Assembly: GCA_946540605.1 (NCBI GenBank)
Contig: CAMNIU010000222.1
Location: 1 to 46,701 of the forward strand
DNA length: 46,701 nt
DNA from: an uncultured Treponema sp.
GTDB lineage: Bacteria; Spirochaetota; Spirochaetia; Treponematales; Treponemataceae
Direction: 5' to 3'
Position numbers and translations under genes: made by a program. Under the pieces are notes generated by a model, which was not told the origin of the DNA, ran no database searches, and was given only the letters and a program-made list of their open reading frames with translations. This document shows positions 10,884-21,798 of the stretch, in pieces. Every line of letters begins with the position of its first letter. Position 1 is the first letter of the stretch.

Positions 10884-13800
10884 TTAGAAGCCCTGCATTG
10901 TGTAGACATTAGACATTGCAGTTTTTCCGTCTGCAAAATGAACTACGGCTACATAGTAAACTAAACCTTTTTCGTGAGAATTGTACATATCATCGGCAGC
11001 AACTGAAGAATCAAAGGTTCCAAACTTATCATAAGTAATATCATTACCATTTCTATCTGGTAAATACATGTGACTCTTTATCAGTTTTCCACGACGCTCC
11101 CATTCATCTGCATCGTCTCCCAAATCTCGTTCGGATGCAATTACATTTACCAAATAAGCTTTATTAGAACGTGGAGTAGCAGTGTCTGCAAAGAAAGTGC
11201 GTTTAATATCATTCAGATAGTCTTTATCAAAAGTCGTTTCATTTACACTACTGTCATTTGAGGTTGTTGGAATAAAATAATAAATGGTATTAGAGACTGT
11301 TTCTTCTGTACACAAATCGTATTCAGTTTCACCTTCTACATAATTAGATATATTATTTGTATAAAGATATTTCTGGTCATTCTCATAAGGATGGGTGCTG
11401 TCAAATTCACTATATGGACGGCCATACTTTCTGTTAACACCTCTTCCTTTTGATTCGCTATACGGATTTTCATTAAAGCCTTGCATTGTGATTCTGTAGA
11501 AACAATTTCCGCGTAACTCTTTTGGGGCAATAGGTATAACTGTTGCATGTTCTGGATCTGTATCCCAATCAATCATTATGAAATCTCCTGGTTTTGCATT
11601 TGAATTATCATTTTGAAGTACAGTTTTCCCGTTTTCTATTGTTTTTTCACAATTTTGCAGTTGATTTAAATAACCATAATAACCATCGATAGTCCATACA
11701 GTTGCTTTTTTTGAGTCTTCATGCCAGCAATCTTGAATATAAATCATATTTCTGTAAAAATTTTCATCGCTTTCAATAGGAAGTGTTGAAATAAGCATAT
11801 TTTTCTTAGGGTCATATTTTACAGAAAGCTTATTCTTGAAAGTACCAATATCTGCCTTTCCAAGTGTGATATATGCATAATTTCCGTATGTGTCTGTGAC
11901 TTTTGCAAAGAACATATATTTTCCATCCGGAAGTCCATAGACTGGTATTGCTGCATCAATACCGTAGGCTGCTCCATTATAATAATAGGTTGTTGATTTG
12001 TATGTAGCAATACCACCTGGAAGAGCTTCAATTTCTGCCGGTTCCATAATAGAAAGGTTATCACCCCAAGATTCCTGATATGGAGCATAGTAATAATTAT
12101 AATATTCTGAAAGATGGCCTTCATCTTCACGCACAATATTATCAAATTGATAATAACGTCCATCATAGGAAAGTCTGGAATCATGCTGTGAAACATTATT
12201 TGTTATAAAAGGAGGAATATTGTCATCCTTTTCGGAAAAGAAGATTGGTTGTACTTCAGATTCGACAGTTTTTGTATCACTAACTGCAAGAAGCTTTATT
12301 TTGGCAGAGACATCAGGATAGCCATATTTTTCTTTACATACTTTTACGGCTTCAAAGTAGGTATTATCGCCATTGTCACAGTTATATCCCCATTCATCTA
12401 CCCAAGATGTTTTATCCCAATCCGGTTTGTTCCAGTCGTTTTCAAATGGCGCTCGTAATGGATTTGTCACTGTAAAGGTAAAAGTATTTGCTGTTTCAGA
12501 TTTGTAATAAATCCAGTTTTGTCCATTATCTGTACTGTAACAAGGAACGTATTTTACATTTTCATCGAAATTTAAAATATTTACAGTTACATCAAAAAGT
12601 CCTGTATTAACACCAGCAGATTCTTTATCGAATGTAAATTCAGGTGCTTCTAAGCTGACGCTGCCAGATAGACTTGTGTTAACAATTACCTTATAAAGAG
12701 GCCCAAAGGTTTCTCCAACCCATTGTCCGTTTAACATAGAATCGGTTTTGTATTCTACCTGCACATAAACAACATATTTTGAATCTGGTTCAAGGTTGTT
12801 GATAATGTGTAAGTCTGAAATATCGCTCCAGTGGTCTTCTTCCAATGGAACTGCTGTATTTCTATGCAATTTTGTATTTTTTTCTGAATCAGAATTGTCT
12901 CCATTGTTTAATTTGCCATAAAAAATACGATATATTGGTTTTACCTTTCTATCTGGAAGATTTACAATTTTTGTATAATCAGATTTTGTCATATCTTCAA
13001 AAAAGAGTTCTACTTTTCTCTTTTCAGAATTATTGTCATCATAAGATACGATATAATTATGGAAATCAATTTTTTTAGGATAGAGAATTGTTATGTAATT
13101 ATCATTACCTACACCATCTATAATTTTAGCTTGCATAATGATATTACAATTTTGATTTTTTATGTCGTTTGCAAAATTATGAAAGTCTTCTGGTAAAGGA
13201 CACCAATACGAATTATTATCATAAGCTGCCCATTCATAAGGATTGATCAGTTCAGCAGGCGTTGGAGTAAGGTGGTTAATATCTAGCCCCCAGAAAACAT
13301 AATACTTGTAGTCTGTTGAATCATCATAATAGTTTTCACCAGTAAGTTTTGAATTGTAGTAAGAGTCTTTAGGAAGAAAACTGAAGCTCACATCATTAAG
13401 TCTATCTTCGATATCTCTGGCTGTAGGATATTCATATTCTCCATCGTTATAATGTGGGTCAAGCCATCCCTCTCTTAAGCCCGTTTCAATTTGTTCTTTT
13501 GTGGCGTTTTCAGATATATCAATTCTATATAATGGAGATGATAAGCCAAATCTTGTATTTGATCTGTATGCAAAAATAGTGTCGCGAACAACATTATAAG
13601 TCTTGACCTCATTGCTTTCTTTATTGTAAGAATCCTGTAATGTCACTTTTATTTCATAAAGGCCATCAGAATATTTTTCATCGGAAAGATCGATTGTGTA
13701 TTTTCCTGTATAATTGTCATCATTTTCATTCTTTTCTAAATTAACATAAATTTCTTCTTCATCAGCTGGAACTTCTTCTCCCATTGAATCGTAAAGCTGG

Positions 13801-14549
13801 TGATATTTTATATGACCGCGGATCCTTCCTTTGTCGTTATCTCTTCCTTCAATATAAATATCAAATTTTGTATTTATGTGATTCACGCTAAGAATTTCTT
13901 TTTCTGCTTCAATCTGTTCTGTTGTTGCATCAGTTTCTGGAAGAATTACAGGAAGACAACCTTCTTTGAGAATGCGAGGTGCTTCACTTGCATTTCGAGA
14001 AATATAGCTTGATGGAACTTTAGCGGCGATTTCAATAAATTCAGGAGCTTTGTTATCAATTTGTTTGTTTATTCTATATTTATGATTTATAGAAGAAGTT
14101 ATTGGAAGACCATCAGGAGTGGTGCAGGCTCTTGAAAGCTTTACGAAAATGTCCATAGTTTCCTTTTTGTCTAAATCTATTAGATGGCGTTCATTTGCAG
14201 CAATTTTTACTTCTTTATTGTCGTTATACCATTCCGGTTCTAAGAAGTATTCTTTAAGATCAGTTTCCTGTGAATCTTCAATTTTGAAATTATCATTAAA
14301 AGTAGAAGGATTCATAGATTTCGTAAATGAAATTATAATGGCTCTGTTTTTGGGAAGCCCGCCATCCTGAAAGACTGGCTCTACAGTCGCCACCGGGCAT
14401 TCATTATTTGCAATATAGATTGCTTTATCGATTGCTTCTTTTACGTCACCGCCATCAAGAAAATTTTCGCAGCTAAAAAAAAGGGTGGTGCAAACTAGAA
14501 TAAAAATTGGATAAAAGATTTTGGGATTAAAAAAACGATTATAATTCAT
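10884..14549 (-). CDS. Very large lipoprotein with N-terminal Ig-like (Big_5/SbsA-type) domain
   Basis: About 1,221 residues. Start at 14549 because GGAG lies 8 nt upstream; an ATG 12 nt earlier overlaps that site. A hydrophobic signal ends in LFFSC (Cys27). The N-terminal ~150 residues (NECPVATVEPVFQ..PKNRAIIISFTKSMNPSTF) are like bacterial Ig-like Big_5 domains. The rest is a chain of beta-rich segments with many Tyr, Asp and Asn, including a YDDNNSEKRKVELFFED strand pair, and shows no enzymatic motif I recognise. Proteins opening with CENFLDGGD-like sequences recall large paralogous treponemal lipoproteins (recollection, not a search). A surface or periplasmic structural role is inferred. 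It lies between ruvA and ruvB on the opposite strand. Confidence 0.75.
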   Translation of the reverse strand: MNYNRFFNPKIFYPIFILVCTTLFFSCENFLDGGDVKEAIDKAIYIANNECPVATVEPVFQDGGLPKNRAIIISFTKSMNPSTFNDNFKIEDSQETDLKEYFLEPEWYNDNKEVKIAANERHLIDLDKKETMDIFVKLSRACTTPDGLPITSSINHKYRINKQIDNKAPEFIEIAAKVPSSYISRNASEAPRILKEGCLPVILPETDATTEQIEAEKEILSVNHINTKFDIYIEGRDNDKGRIRGHIKYHQLYDSMGEEVPADEEEIYVNLEKNENDDNYTGKYTIDLSDEKYSDGLYEIKVTLQDSYNKESNEVKTYNVVRDTIFAYRSNTRFGLSSPLYRIDISENATKEQIETGLREGWLDPHYNDGEYEYPTARDIEDRLNDVSFSFLPKDSYYNSKLTGENYYDDSTDYKYYVFWGLDINHLTPTPAELINPYEWAAYDNNSYWCPLPEDFHNFANDIKNQNCNIIMQAKIIDGVGNDNYITILYPKKIDFHNYIVSYDDNNSEKRKVELFFEDMTKSDYTKIVNLPDRKVKPIYRIFYGKLNNGDNSDSEKNTKLHRNTAVPLEEDHWSDISDLHIINNLEPDSKYVVYVQVEYKTDSMLNGQWVGETFGPLYKVIVNTSLSGSVSLEAPEFTFDKESAGVNTGLFDVTVNILNFDENVKYVPCYSTDNGQNWIYYKSETANTFTFTVTNPLRAPFENDWNKPDWDKTSWVDEWGYNCDNGDNTYFEAVKVCKEKYGYPDVSAKIKLLAVSDTKTVESEVQPIFFSEKDDNIPPFITNNVSQHDSRLSYDGRYYQFDNIVREDEGHLSEYYNYYYAPYQESWGDNLSIMEPAEIEALPGGIATYKSTTYYYNGAAYGIDAAIPVYGLPDGKYMFFAKVTDTYGNYAYITLGKADIGTFKNKLSVKYDPKKNMLISTLPIESDENFYRNMIYIQDCWHEDSKKATVWTIDGYYGYLNQLQNCEKTIENGKTVLQNDNSNAKPGDFIMIDWDTDPEHATVIPIAPKELRGNCFYRITMQGFNENPYSESKGRGVNRKYGRPYSEFDSTHPYENDQKYLYTNNISNYVEGETEYDLCTEETVSNTIYYFIPTTSNDSSVNETTFDKDYLNDIKRTFFADTATPRSNKAYLVNVIASERDLGDDADEWERRGKLIKSHMYLPDRNGNDITYDKFGTFDSSVAADDMYNSHEKGLVYYVAVVHFADGKTAMSNVYTMQGF

Positions 14550-14633
14550 AACACACTCCATTGTTCCATTATGGAAGAGAAAAAATCAGCCGTCAAGAAA
14601 AATATGTCATTGTAGAAATTATACTGATTTATG

Positions 14634-15708: not shown

Positions 15709-16989
15709 TTATTTATCAAAATCTGCATACTTTTTAGGGAAGGCTGCATATTCGCCTATTATGATAGGGGCATTATATTCTTTTGCTTTTTCTGATAAAA
15801 ATGCCATATCATCTTTAATGATTCTTCCATGAACTGTTTCATTCCAGATTGCAGTCATTTTTGTCCAGGTTGCATCTGACCAGGTAAAGCCTTGAGGATT
15901 GTAATTATGTACCTCTATAATCAGATGATTTTCTGTGCTGTCTTCTGGAAGGGCAAAATTAGAAAATGAATTAGAACTACCTTCTCCGGCATAAGTCATA
16001 ACTATAAGATTTCTTGTTGAATTATTTCCGCCGGTTGCTCTAACAGAATCTACAAAAAGCTGATTCCATTTATTTATGTATACATTTGCTTTCTTTGCTA
16101 CATCCAGGCTTGGACTCCATGTTGCTTTTTCATCTAATACTTCATTCATACTTTCAAAAATCAGACGTTCATCATAATCCTTAAAAGTTTCTGCTAACTG
16201 AGTCCATATGTTTTGAAAGCGATCTTTGTACTGTTCCCAGCTTGAATCGCAGGCTTTTATCCAGCCAGAAGCTCCACCATCATGATGAATATTTATGATA
16301 CAGTACATGTCGTTTTCAATAACATAATCAAGGCATTCTTTTACGCGTGAAAGCCATACTGGATCAATATTGCCTTCATCATCAATATGTTCGCCCCAGG
16401 TTACCGGCATGCGGACTGCATCAAAACCAAGACTTTTTACAAGAGCAATTATTTCATTACTTGTTTTTGGCTGGCCCCAACCGGTTTCCCAGGTTATAAT
16501 TCCATCGTTCCATCTGACCATCCAGCCTTTCTCATCTTCTTTTGAACTAGCCCAGTTGTCATACCATTTATTATGAGTCTTATCCCAAAGAGCCTGATAT
16601 GAGGTTGAGTCCAAAGTATTTCCAAGATTCCAGCCGGTCTTCATATTTTTTACAGCTGTCTGGGCAGATTCTTCTTTATAGCCTTTTTCAGCTTTATGAT
16701 ATTGTGCTCGGCCTTCATAGCTTTTCATAATTCCATCAATTACTTCCTGATGGGCAGAAAGATTTTTTCTGATAACTATATCAGAACAGTCCCACCAGAA
16801 GCCTGTGAGATTATCATCTGCGGAAAAACAGTTGTTGATACATTCTGCATATTTTGCGACCTCTTTGTAGTTGTATTCATTGTTTGTTGCATCTGTATTA
16901 GATTTGCAAGAATTACATAAAAGGATAAATGGTGTGATTAAGCCTGTAATTATAAGACATACTTTTGATATAAATATATTTTTTTTCAT
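15709..16989 (-). CDS. GH5-family endoglucanase-like lipoprotein, apparently circularly permuted
   Basis: A 426-residue secreted glycosidase. Signal peptide 1-25 with a lipoprotein-like CNSC (Cys28). GH5 landmarks: MKTGWNLGNTLD (116-127, normal domain start), DAVRMPVTW (190-198), INIHHDGG (232-239), acid/base Glu283 in SMNEV, EVHNYNP (359-365) and nucleophile Glu413 in IIIGEYAAF. In ordinary GH5 enzymes 50-60 residues follow the nucleophile, including the eighth strand with a conserved Trp; here only 13 do. The missing piece appears instead at residues 40-93, just after the signal: YKEVAKYAEC, LTGFWWDC, then IRKNLSAHQEVIDGIMKSYEG. Specificity (cellulose, xyloglucan or mixed-linkage glucan) cannot be read. 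The promoter is a perfect consensus and leaderless. Confidence 0.88.
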   Translation of the reverse strand: MKKNIFISKVCLIITGLITPFILLCNSCKSNTDATNNEYNYKEVAKYAECINNCFSADDNLTGFWWDCSDIVIRKNLSAHQEVIDGIMKSYEGRAQYHKAEKGYKEESAQTAVKNMKTGWNLGNTLDSTSYQALWDKTHNKWYDNWASSKEDEKGWMVRWNDGIITWETGWGQPKTSNEIIALVKSLGFDAVRMPVTWGEHIDDEGNIDPVWLSRVKECLDYVIENDMYCIINIHHDGGASGWIKACDSSWEQYKDRFQNIWTQLAETFKDYDERLIFESMNEVLDEKATWSPSLDVAKKANVYINKWNQLFVDSVRATGGNNSTRNLIVMTYAGEGSSNSFSNFALPEDSTENHLIIEVHNYNPQGFTWSDATWTKMTAIWNETVHGRIIKDDMAFLSEKAKEYNAPIIIGEYAAFPKKYADFDK

Positions 16990-18266: not shown

Positions 18267-19064
18267 CTATGTTAATTGTTCAAAACTATAGCGCGCTAAA
18301 TTAAAAAACTGCTGACGCATTACGTCAGTAATCATCTGGTCGGTAGCGGCCTTCTGGAATTGTTCAGCTACTGCTTCTTCAAGTTGAGAAATGTCTTTCT
18401 GTGAAAGTGGCAGGCGACGACCGCTCATAAAATTTTCAAACTCCTTGCTATGGAATGTAAATGGACCTGCAAAAGCCAGGTGCACATTAAGCAGGGAGTT
18501 TTTTTCTGTATCAGCTAAAAATGCAAACGAAGCTGACTGCTGGGTAATAGTGTGTTCCGGACCAACACGGCGGAAAATAGAAAGCTCTGCATCTACAAGC
18601 GGAATTCGGATATTTGATAGAATAAAACCTTCCGGCACAACCTTAAAGTTTCTGATGTTTTCTGTATGAGTTTCTGTCTGATTTTTGAATTCGAGTTTTG
18701 CATCTAGTGCCATAAGAGGGGCAAACAGAGTAAGCTTATGATTTTCGGAACAGATGTTTCCACCGATTGTAGCTGTGTTTCGGATTATGGGATTTGCAAT
18801 ACAGTTTAAGGCTTCGTATAAAATTGGCGGCAAGTGGGTCTGTCCTATAGCTAAGAGTTCTGCAAGTGTAGTTCCAGGGCCTACATCAATATAACGCTCG
18901 TGACGCGAAATGTGAGAAAGATCTTTTATTCCATGCGTTGAAATAAATTTATCGGGCAGTGTTTCAATTCTTGTACAGCCACCTACAACCTTTGTTCCCG
19001 GATTATTACTCAGGATTTTTATGAGTTCTGCTGCATTTTTTGCATAAAGTATTGTCTTTCCCAT
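18267..19064 (-). CDS. FAD-binding subunit of a molybdenum-hydroxylase-like complex
   Basis: A 265-residue CoxM/XdhB-type flavoprotein subunit. The FAD sites are visible: KVVGGCTRIE (for the usual aGGT motif) and NTATIGGNICSENHKLTLFAPLMALDAKLEF. The CO_deh_flav_C-like tail is present (FMSGRRLPLSQKDISQLEEAVAEQF). It would take electrons from the iron-sulfur subunit and pass them to NAD+ or another acceptor. It is the last gene of a five-gene minus-strand run, 26 nt after the 2Fe-2S gene, with AAGGAAG ahead of its ATG. The subunit looks more canonical than its partners. Confidence 0.85.
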   Translation of the reverse strand: MGKTILYAKNAAELIKILSNNPGTKVVGGCTRIETLPDKFISTHGIKDLSHISRHERYIDVGPGTTLAELLAIGQTHLPPILYEALNCIANPIIRNTATIGGNICSENHKLTLFAPLMALDAKLEFKNQTETHTENIRNFKVVPEGFILSNIRIPLVDAELSIFRRVGPEHTITQQSASFAFLADTEKNSLLNVHLAFAGPFTFHSKEFENFMSGRRLPLSQKDISQLEEAVAEQFQKAATDQMITDVMRQQFFNLARYSFEQLT

Positions 19065-19090
19065 TCTACTTCCTTATTAATGAATCCTTA

Positions 19091-19567
19091 TCAGCTTCGT
19101 TTTAATCTTTTATTTGACACCTGAATTGCATAGATGATTCCATTTACAAGAGTTTCTAAATCCGTACAGCAAGGGGCAAGGGCTTTCAGATTATCTGCAA
19201 TTTCTTGACGGGTAGGTATTTTGGGTATTTTTAAGATCTGATAAGCAGAAAAAACTTTTCCTGCTGTACAGTAACCGCAAAGTTTTATTCCAGCTTTCTG
19301 AAAGCCTGCCATTATATTTGAATACTCTTCTGTTTTTGTAAAATAATCTAAGGTAACGATGTCACAGTTTCGGACAATTCCTGCCGGTATTTTACAAGAT
19401 GCAACCGGTTTGTCATCAAGCAAAATTGTACAGGTTCCACAAAAGCCACTGCTGCAGCCACTTTTTACCGAAGGACAGCCGTTTTTGTGTAACACCTTCA
19501 TAAGTGATTCATCTGCATGAGCGTCAAGAATTGTTTTTGTTCCGTTCAGGGTTACTGGTATTTTCAT
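19091..19567 (-). CDS. 2Fe-2S subunit of the molybdenum-hydroxylase-like complex, altered distal cluster motif
   Basis: 158 residues with two predicted [2Fe-2S] domains. The plant-ferredoxin-like cluster is intact: Cys38, Cys43, Cys46 and Cys58 (GCSSGFCGTC...SC). The distal cluster has Cys97 and Cys100 (CGYC), but the normal C-x-C of the NLCRCTGY motif reads APCCTDL (Cys133-Cys134): the first ligand position is Pro and the Cys is shifted by one. The start overlaps the stop of the large-subunit gene by 4 nt, with GGAG upstream. Electron transfer between the molybdenum site and FAD is the expected role. Confidence 0.85.
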   Translation of the reverse strand: MKIPVTLNGTKTILDAHADESLMKVLHKNGCPSVKSGCSSGFCGTCTILLDDKPVASCKIPAGIVRNCDIVTLDYFTKTEEYSNIMAGFQKAGIKLCGYCTAGKVFSAYQILKIPKIPTRQEIADNLKALAPCCTDLETLVNGIIYAIQVSNKRLKRS

Positions 19568-21798
19568 TCTTCCGCTCCTTTGCTTTCAGATTTTTTAGTT
19601 TCATTCTTTTCTTTTGTACGGTCTCGAATCAGCTGGAAGAGCAGATCTTCTGTACAAGGAAGTTCTGTAAGCTGAGTTGTAAGTGCAAGAGAAAGTGCCG
19701 AAGAAAAGGCTGCCGGGAGCGAATTATGAATGAGTCCTCCAACCTGACCAGAGCGGTTACTTGATTGAATAAAACTGATGTTGATTGCATCGCAAGGAAC
19801 TGTCTTTCCTTTTACAAGCATATTAAGTTCCTGCTGAATTTCCAGTTTAAGAGTACGGCGTGCTGCAGCTTCATCAAAAAGTTCTCCACAATCCATAGTA
19901 ACCCAGATTCCTTTGATTTTCTCGCTGTAGGTATAAGTGTCGAGTTCCACCTCAACTACAGTTGTTATAAAAGAGGTTGTAAAGAAGGGAGTTCCGCTGA
20001 AACTGTCTTTATCCCATTTGTTGCGTGGAGAAAGCTGACCACCGCGTTTTGCAGTAATTGGAAGCGGCTGATGGAAGCGTTTTTTCTGAATATCTGTACA
20101 GCATTTTTTTACAAGCTCGTTCATAATACTGATGGAGCTGTAAGAATCTTCCGGACGTTCTGGAATCTGATCATATGGAAAATCAGAATTAATCTGAATA
20201 TTTTGTTTTGGAATTTGAAGAATTTCAGCAGCAGAGCTTTTCCAGATGTCCTGAATTACTTCAGAAGGTTTTATTGTGTGAATTATAAGTTTTTCATCGG
20301 CGTTTAGAGTTACTTCCACTTTTGTGTCATTTGTAAAACTTGTTTGTCCGTAATAGCCAGAAGGAATGTATGCAGTTGCAACTCCAATTCCTCGTAATGG
20401 AAGAGCAAAGAAAGGTTTACTGTCTTTTTCTGCACGGTCAATTGCTTCCATATGGAATGAGGCATATTTTCTGTTGAAATCACTTTCCTTAAGGGCCTTT
20501 TGAATAACCGATTCAACATCACCTGTTGGAATAGTAAACGGAAAGTCTTTTGATTCCGGTGATTTATGAGCATTTAGAAGGCGAAGTTCATCCGGGAAAA
20601 TTTTTGACTGATTACTGATTTTCTGGATTTCGTTTTCAATTGCAAAAAAGGCTTGTGATTCAATTATCTGCATGGAAATTGATGTAGGCGGATTTTTGGA
20701 AGTATGTGCTTTTGCAGAGATGTAAAGATTTTCTGGTTTATAATAGCTTGCTGATGCAATTGCAATTCGGTCTGTTATTTCCTGAGCAAAAGGATTCGAG
20801 CTTCCAATATCAATATCAATAATGATTTTTAAGGCTTTTAAGCGGCCGTCTTTGTTTAAGGCTGTTCGGTAAGTTATTTCTGTGAGAACACCAGGAACCA
20901 TATAGTTTTCCTGTTCAAACTGAGAAAGCACAAGACGAACCGGTTTTTTAGTTAGCCATGAAGCAGCAGCAATTTGAACTGCAAGTTGAGTCGTTCTTAC
21001 CAGCCCGGAAGGATAGATTCCTGCAGATTTTGTTTTATGAATATAAACCTGCTCTTCTTTAATATCCAGAACCTGAGCTACAGATTTTTGGGTAAAAGAA
21101 GTCCAGCGGGTTGGAGCATATACATGAATTTTATCGCCTTCTGTATAAGCAAAAGCTCCTTCTGTTTCCTGCCATTTTGGTGTAAGTAGTTTTTCTTTCC
21201 AGATATCTGTTGATGTAAAATCAGCATTATCAAAAAGTTTTGTATCTGCCTGAGCAAGAGATAAAGTTTTATAAAGTCCGTATTTTACTTCGCGGGTTGC
21301 AACAACAACATTTGGATTTTCTTCAACATGAGATTTATCGATTACAGTATCGAGAGATGGCATTTCATTAATCTGTTCAAGAAACTCTTTAAAATTTGCG
21401 GTTTCTTCCTGCTGATTAATTACATTGTTGAGAGCCGATTCAAGGTTTTCTACATCAAATGTAACGTTAGCAGTGTCTAACAGTTTGTAAACTTTTTCTT
21501 CGTCCGGGCCAAAAAGAATTCCAAGTGGTTCCCCGCTGTAAGATACATTTCCATATCCAAAGATTTTTGTGACTGTCTTGTTTGCAGAAATTGATTTTGC
21601 TCCAGGAAGGTCTTTTGAACTGAGCATAAAATAACCTTCCGGCAAATCAGGAACAGTTACGCTTTTTACTTTTCCGGCTGGGGCAGGGCTTCGTATGAGT
21701 GCTGCGTAAAGACAGCCTTCTTTTTCTGCATCGCTATAAAATCCGGATGCTTCGAGGGAGCGGAAATTTGCTTTTGAAGAATTTTTCTTTGCAGCCAT
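19564..21798 (-). CDS. Divergent molybdopterin-binding subunit of xanthine-dehydrogenase family
   Basis: A 744-residue homologue of the large (XdhA/CoxL) subunit. The N-terminal a/b hammerhead is recognisable (EGCLYAALIRSPAPAGKVKSV, NVSYSGEPLGILFG). Further homologous stretches are KKPVRLVLSQFEQE, FFAIENEI and the PAAFSSAL helix. The three loops that normally hold or serve the molybdenum cofactor are not conserved: the GGGFGGK position reads SAGIYPSGL (258-266), the RGFG position reads SISMQIIE (373-380), and the GVGE catalytic-Glu motif reads SGQVGGLI (683-690). The tail is Lys/Glu-rich. Substrate and even activity are uncertain. It overlaps both neighbours (TAATG upstream, 4 nt downstream), so translation is probably coupled. 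Confidence 0.8.
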   Translation of the reverse strand: MAAKKNSSKANFRSLEASGFYSDAEKEGCLYAALIRSPAPAGKVKSVTVPDLPEGYFMLSSKDLPGAKSISANKTVTKIFGYGNVSYSGEPLGILFGPDEEKVYKLLDTANVTFDVENLESALNNVINQQEETANFKEFLEQINEMPSLDTVIDKSHVEENPNVVVATREVKYGLYKTLSLAQADTKLFDNADFTSTDIWKEKLLTPKWQETEGAFAYTEGDKIHVYAPTRWTSFTQKSVAQVLDIKEEQVYIHKTKSAGIYPSGLVRTTQLAVQIAAASWLTKKPVRLVLSQFEQENYMVPGVLTEITYRTALNKDGRLKALKIIIDIDIGSSNPFAQEITDRIAIASASYYKPENLYISAKAHTSKNPPTSISMQIIESQAFFAIENEIQKISNQSKIFPDELRLLNAHKSPESKDFPFTIPTGDVESVIQKALKESDFNRKYASFHMEAIDRAEKDSKPFFALPLRGIGVATAYIPSGYYGQTSFTNDTKVEVTLNADEKLIIHTIKPSEVIQDIWKSSAAEILQIPKQNIQINSDFPYDQIPERPEDSYSSISIMNELVKKCCTDIQKKRFHQPLPITAKRGGQLSPRNKWDKDSFSGTPFFTTSFITTVVEVELDTYTYSEKIKGIWVTMDCGELFDEAAARRTLKLEIQQELNMLVKGKTVPCDAINISFIQSSNRSGQVGGLIHNSLPAAFSSALSLALTTQLTELPCTEDLLFQLIRDRTKEKNETKKSESKGAEE

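Follow-up and report, generated by a model that had tools for sequence, protein, structure and literature searches.

A very probable natural circular permutant of a GH5 endo-beta-glucanase in Treponema

Few cellulase families have been studied as much as GH5. Natural permutation within a (beta/alpha)8 barrel is known from the GH70 glucansucrases, whose order relative to GH13 was explained by permutation per duplication (PMC4919382), and MalS (GH13_19) is a further naturally circularly permuted glycoside hydrolase (PMC10223318). Both belong to a clan unrelated to GH5, and the GH70 barrel begins at alpha3, whereas the permuted GH5 barrel described here begins at alpha7. TpMglB-2 of T. pallidum is a permuted, tethered lipoprotein, for which tethering was proposed as a possible reason for the topology (PMC4990184). 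It shares with the permuted GH5 protein a permuted order, a tether that in the latter is probable, and the genus name, but is a sugar-binding protein, and neither an enzyme nor a TIM barrel. The paper on GH5 subfamilies makes no mention of permutation (PMC3526467), and a search of the open-access literature found no permuted GH5. Natural permutation within the GH5 barrel thus provisionally appears to be unreported, in agreement with an initial reading of the DNA without database searches (the sequence-only reading), which knew of no described case.

Gene locus and GH5 domain

The minus-strand ORF at 15709-16989(-) of the window (the whole 46,701-nucleotide stretch analysed, from an uncultured gut Treponema sp.) encodes a GH5 enzyme of 426 amino acids (Table 1). 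It lies between ruvB, which is convergent and has an abutting stop codon, and queA. Elsewhere in the window, 10884-14561(-) holds a lipoprotein-like ORF of 1225 amino acids with no Pfam match at 1e-5, and at 18267-21798(-) three neighbouring genes encode the FAD, 2Fe-2S and molybdopterin subunits of a split molybdenum hydroxylase.

Pfam PF00150 matched residues 166-416 (E 6e-49, 167 bits; cut-off 23.5 bits), covering profile positions 12-238 of 272. The early end of the frame, 13 residues past Glu413, had been seen from the sequence and was confirmed. The seven other GH5 matches in the same genome extend to profile positions 268-272, and canonical paralogues in the window genome and 11 related genomes mostly reach 267-271; for the permuted homologues in related genomes, the match ends at 238-247. 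In L070, about 30 extra residues split the GH5 domain between profile positions 176 and 180. R193, H235/H236, N282-E283, H361, Y363 and E413 are present, invariant in all 14 permuted proteins, and shared with canonical sequences.

Sequence and structure comparison of the GH5 body with the PDB gave best matches that include many entries titled GH5-4. The best was PbGH5A from Prevotella bryantii (PDB 3vdh/5d9n; E 1.3e-67, Z 28.9), whose conserved GH5 active-site residues are kept here. PbGH5A has alpha7-beta8-alpha8 at its C-terminus, whereas the window protein has these elements at its N-terminus, so that the usual strand order beta1 to beta8 is broken, with beta8 ahead of beta1. To our knowledge, strand order along the chain is no part of the CAZy family definition, and the permuted protein is therefore a variant of GH5 rather than a non-member.

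Table 1. Features of the permuted GH5 gene and its product, in window coordinates
Feature	Residues	Position	Strand	Basis or remark
Whole ORF	1-426	15709..16989	(-)	Lipoprotein-type leader, alpha7-beta8-alpha8, linker, alpha0-beta1 to beta7
Signal peptide and probable lipidated Cys28 (LCNSC)	1-28	16906..16989	(-)	Sequence reading
Moved segment alpha7-beta8-alpha8	38-93	16711..16878	(-)	Homology to C-terminus of ordinary GH5 domains
Helix alpha7 (predicted)	41-56	16822..16869	(-)	AlphaFold
Predicted strand beta8 (61-65), with conserved Trp66	61-66	16792..16809	(-)	AlphaFold; Trp66 invariant in 14/14
Helix alpha8 (predicted)	81-89	16723..16749	(-)	AlphaFold
Linker from old C-terminus to old N-terminus	94-105	16675..16710	(-)	Alignment of 10-14 permuted proteins
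GH5 body, alpha0 and beta1 to beta7	106-421	15727..16674	(-)	Pfam, PDB matches
Putative acid/base Glu283 on beta4 (NE motif)	283	16141..16143	(-)	Invariant
Putative nucleophile Glu413 on beta7	413	15751..15753	(-)	Invariant; motif IIIGEYAAF
C-terminal tail in old beta7-alpha7 loop	415-426	15712..15747	(-)	Common end point

Homology of the moved segment

The profile of the permuted N-terminal segments was aligned by hhalign to the whole canonical domain, and fell on columns 296-362 of 363 with a score of 60.7 and a probability of 96.6%; the best of 100 column shuffles scored 20.3. An HMM of canonical C-segments, built from the portions following the nucleophile motif, matched 9 of 12 permuted proteins at their N-termini with 20-28 bits, compared with 9.5 for the best of 12000 shuffled proteins. 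In the reverse search with an HMM of the permuted segment, the top four hits were the last ~50 residues of the canonical Treponema proteins L021-L024, at 22-30 bits (best 29.8; best of 5000 shuffled proteins, 9.9 bits). Rotation in silico of L011, L013 and L019 raised the canonical-GH5 score of each above all 500 of its shuffled controls.

Signals from single sequences were smaller. The rotated window protein scored 326.7 bits, equal to the best of 500 shuffles (326.6), and rotated L010 scored 324.8 bits, just under its null maximum of 325.1. The pairwise score of the window N-segment was attained by 8 of 300 shuffles, and a phmmer search of the PDB with the N-terminal 70 residues alone returned nothing meaningful (best E 0.35), since this query is too short and divergent. 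Because the signal from the window protein alone is weak to marginal, the permutation claim rests on the 14-member family. Judged by its sequence, the window protein clearly belongs to this family, with ~45-55% identity to most members and ~71-75% to L039, in segment and body alike.

At the residue level, DEDVAKYATYFHKLCRKYNYTGFWWDCNDLVDR of L013 pairs without gaps with the C-terminal DEEGAKFTSFFIKESRARGFTSFYWDTQEVVDR of L021. The cleanest case is L085, the ORF of which starts with MIKYNDEEIAKYAK at alpha7 and ends with GEYAAWPKKID right past beta7. The C-terminal end point lies within a few residues of the same place in all 14 homologues, and in the canonical L021-L024 the beta7-alpha7 loop, the site of the termini in the permutant, is longer. 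The sequence-only reading had placed the missing C-terminus at residues 40-93, and the new termini between beta7 and beta8. The motifs that it cited are present, the homology holds at family level, with residues 38-93 aligning to GH5 C-termini and the canonical sister clade ranking first, and the order is permuted; its boundaries needed correction. The piece spans residues 38-93 and also includes alpha7, so the break falls more exactly between beta7 and alpha7. The new termini are thus in the loop joining these two elements, next to Glu413, the nucleophile.

Distribution, selection and predicted structure

The permuted order, with the full N-segment and junction, was found in 14 copies on separate contigs in 12 of 200 genomes of the genus Treponema. 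A phylum-wide sample of 393 genomes gave the window genome as its sole full-length match, the other carriers lying outside that sample. Patterns taken from the window protein were also scanned against 84,980 species genomes, the sole basis for the distribution beyond Spirochaetota; this yielded one further permuted record, L039, the remaining matches being non-permuted. L039 belongs to a Treponema MAG from the rumen of water buffalo; as its protein equals L010 in the portions compared, the two are probably not independent genes. A search of viral contigs found nothing.

In a tree of the GH5 bodies, all permuted proteins form one clade (support 0.967), whose sister is formed by the canonical Treponema proteins L021-L024 (support 0.82). 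The latter are the nearest relatives of both body and moved segment, and their bodies are ~41% identical to the permuted proteins. At least one genome (G170) contains, alongside its permuted copy, a canonical relative of the sister type. In related Treponema genomes, tandem GH5 genes and one frame of 1112 amino acids with two GH5 matches were observed (L028, L030, L035; G125:C9:14813-17218).

The moved segment is under purifying selection, with dN/dS of 0.05-0.13 where estimable, similar to the body. Phe64, Trp66, Asp67 and Arg74 are invariant in the permuted family, Trp66 corresponding to the conserved beta8 Trp of GH5. Two AlphaFold runs with different alignments agreed on a helix at 41-56, a strand at 61-65 and a helix at 81-89, followed by beta1 to beta7, so that all eight barrel strands were predicted, with beta8 preceding beta1-beta7 (pTM 0.72 and 0.79, from models resting on 6-7 sequences, two of which span the moved segment). 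The N-terminal segment thus yielded beta8 and two flanking helices, as anticipated from the sequence; pLDDT was <50 at residues 67-78 and about 90-101. In a MAFFT alignment to which C-terminal fragments had been added as rows, these ended up scattered along the protein, and the alignment was excluded from folding. DSSP calls a strand only where a sheet partner exists, and it assigned strand 61-65 in the models. The model matched PbGH5A over 273 residues (Z 28.9, rmsd 2.7), with PbGH5A residues 6-296 of 348 corresponding to model residues 71-395 and the C-terminal part of PbGH5A left over, as permutation predicts. Together, the purifying selection, invariant residues, predicted strands and PbGH5A match suggest that the protein likely has a closed barrel and is active as a GH5_4-like beta-glucanase.

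Origin, alternatives and lipid anchoring

We consider it very probable that a GH5 (GH5_4-like) endo-beta-glucanase has here undergone natural circular permutation, which put beta8 ahead of beta1. After the lipoprotein-type leader, the chain would run through alpha7-beta8-alpha8, a short linker replacing the old termini, alpha0, and beta1 to beta7, and would finish in the beta7-alpha7 loop immediately past the nucleophile. With the eighth strand and the conserved Trp supplied by the N-terminal segment, an ordinary eight-stranded barrel and a complete GH5 active site should form. We infer that the barrel closes and that the enzyme would use the usual retaining mechanism to cleave beta-1,4- or mixed-linkage glucans. 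A single origin inside Treponema by permutation by duplication is most likely: a paralogue, whose canonical sister clade persists, would have undergone tandem duplication and fusion, followed by loss of both ends. The tandem and double GH5 genes of relatives indicate that the raw material for this route is present, and are possibly the kind of intermediate involved.

Decay of a truncated GH5 gene that carries an unrelated N-terminal extension could account for a frame that stops early beside ruvB, and for an N-segment that by itself is only weakly similar to GH5 C-termini. We regard decay as very improbable, given that 14 of 14 homologues share the end point and carry the segment, that the catalytic residues and Trp66 are invariant with low dN/dS, and that at family level the segment shares homology with GH5 C-termini. 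A pseudogene was accordingly rejected on the shared ends, invariant residues and low dN/dS, and an unrelated N-terminal domain on the family-level homology. An assembly error or a collapsed tandem repeat might be suspected in a fragmented assembly of 256 contigs from a genome whose relatives have tandem GH5 genes. The chance of this is vanishingly small: the same order and identical junctions occur in 14 divergent copies on independent contigs from 12 genomes, which excludes an assembly chimera, and the flanks of 13 permuted loci held neither a second GH5 copy nor a remnant. The relatives sought by the sequence-only reading thus also settle its concern about mis-assembly.

The source of alpha7-beta8-alpha8 might have been another GH5 gene, by recombination, and not a duplicate of the gene itself, in which case the order would still be permuted. 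The signal covers a short stretch of about 55 residues, and the same possibility was raised for the Treponema lipoprotein TpMglB-2 (PMC4990184); we nevertheless find it rather unlikely, as the best matches of the segment are the C-termini of L021-L024, the sister clade in the body tree itself. A domain-swapped dimer, with each N-terminal segment completing the barrel of its neighbour, is compatible with a monomer prediction. It has a slight probability, because the linker is merely ~12 residues long and the monomer models assign beta8, which DSSP does only given a sheet partner.

Most permuted homologues have a hydrophobic leader followed by a Cys at the same position, and in the window protein alpha7 follows the probable lipidated Cys28 after a gap of about 12 residues. 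As a possible result of the permutation, the lipid anchor would sit beside the catalytic face of the barrel. A subclade consisting of L019, L020 and L085 lacks a signal peptide, its proteins beginning almost at alpha7 itself; this suggests a cytoplasmic form and means that anchoring cannot be essential in every member. The permutation may have been adaptive, an N-terminus moved from its normal position and anchored at the catalytic face altering how the cleft is presented to membrane or substrate relative to ordinary lipoprotein GH5 enzymes, in parallel to TpMglB-2, with the leaderless subclade later becoming cytoplasmic again; we put this forward tentatively and with considerable doubt.

This family offers a clean natural experiment on the origin of a permutation, as its canonical sisters share the genus with it, and even the genome. 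Profile-based annotation would label such permuted enzymes as truncated. The system can be used to probe the tolerance of termini beside an active site, and whether anchoring drives permutation.
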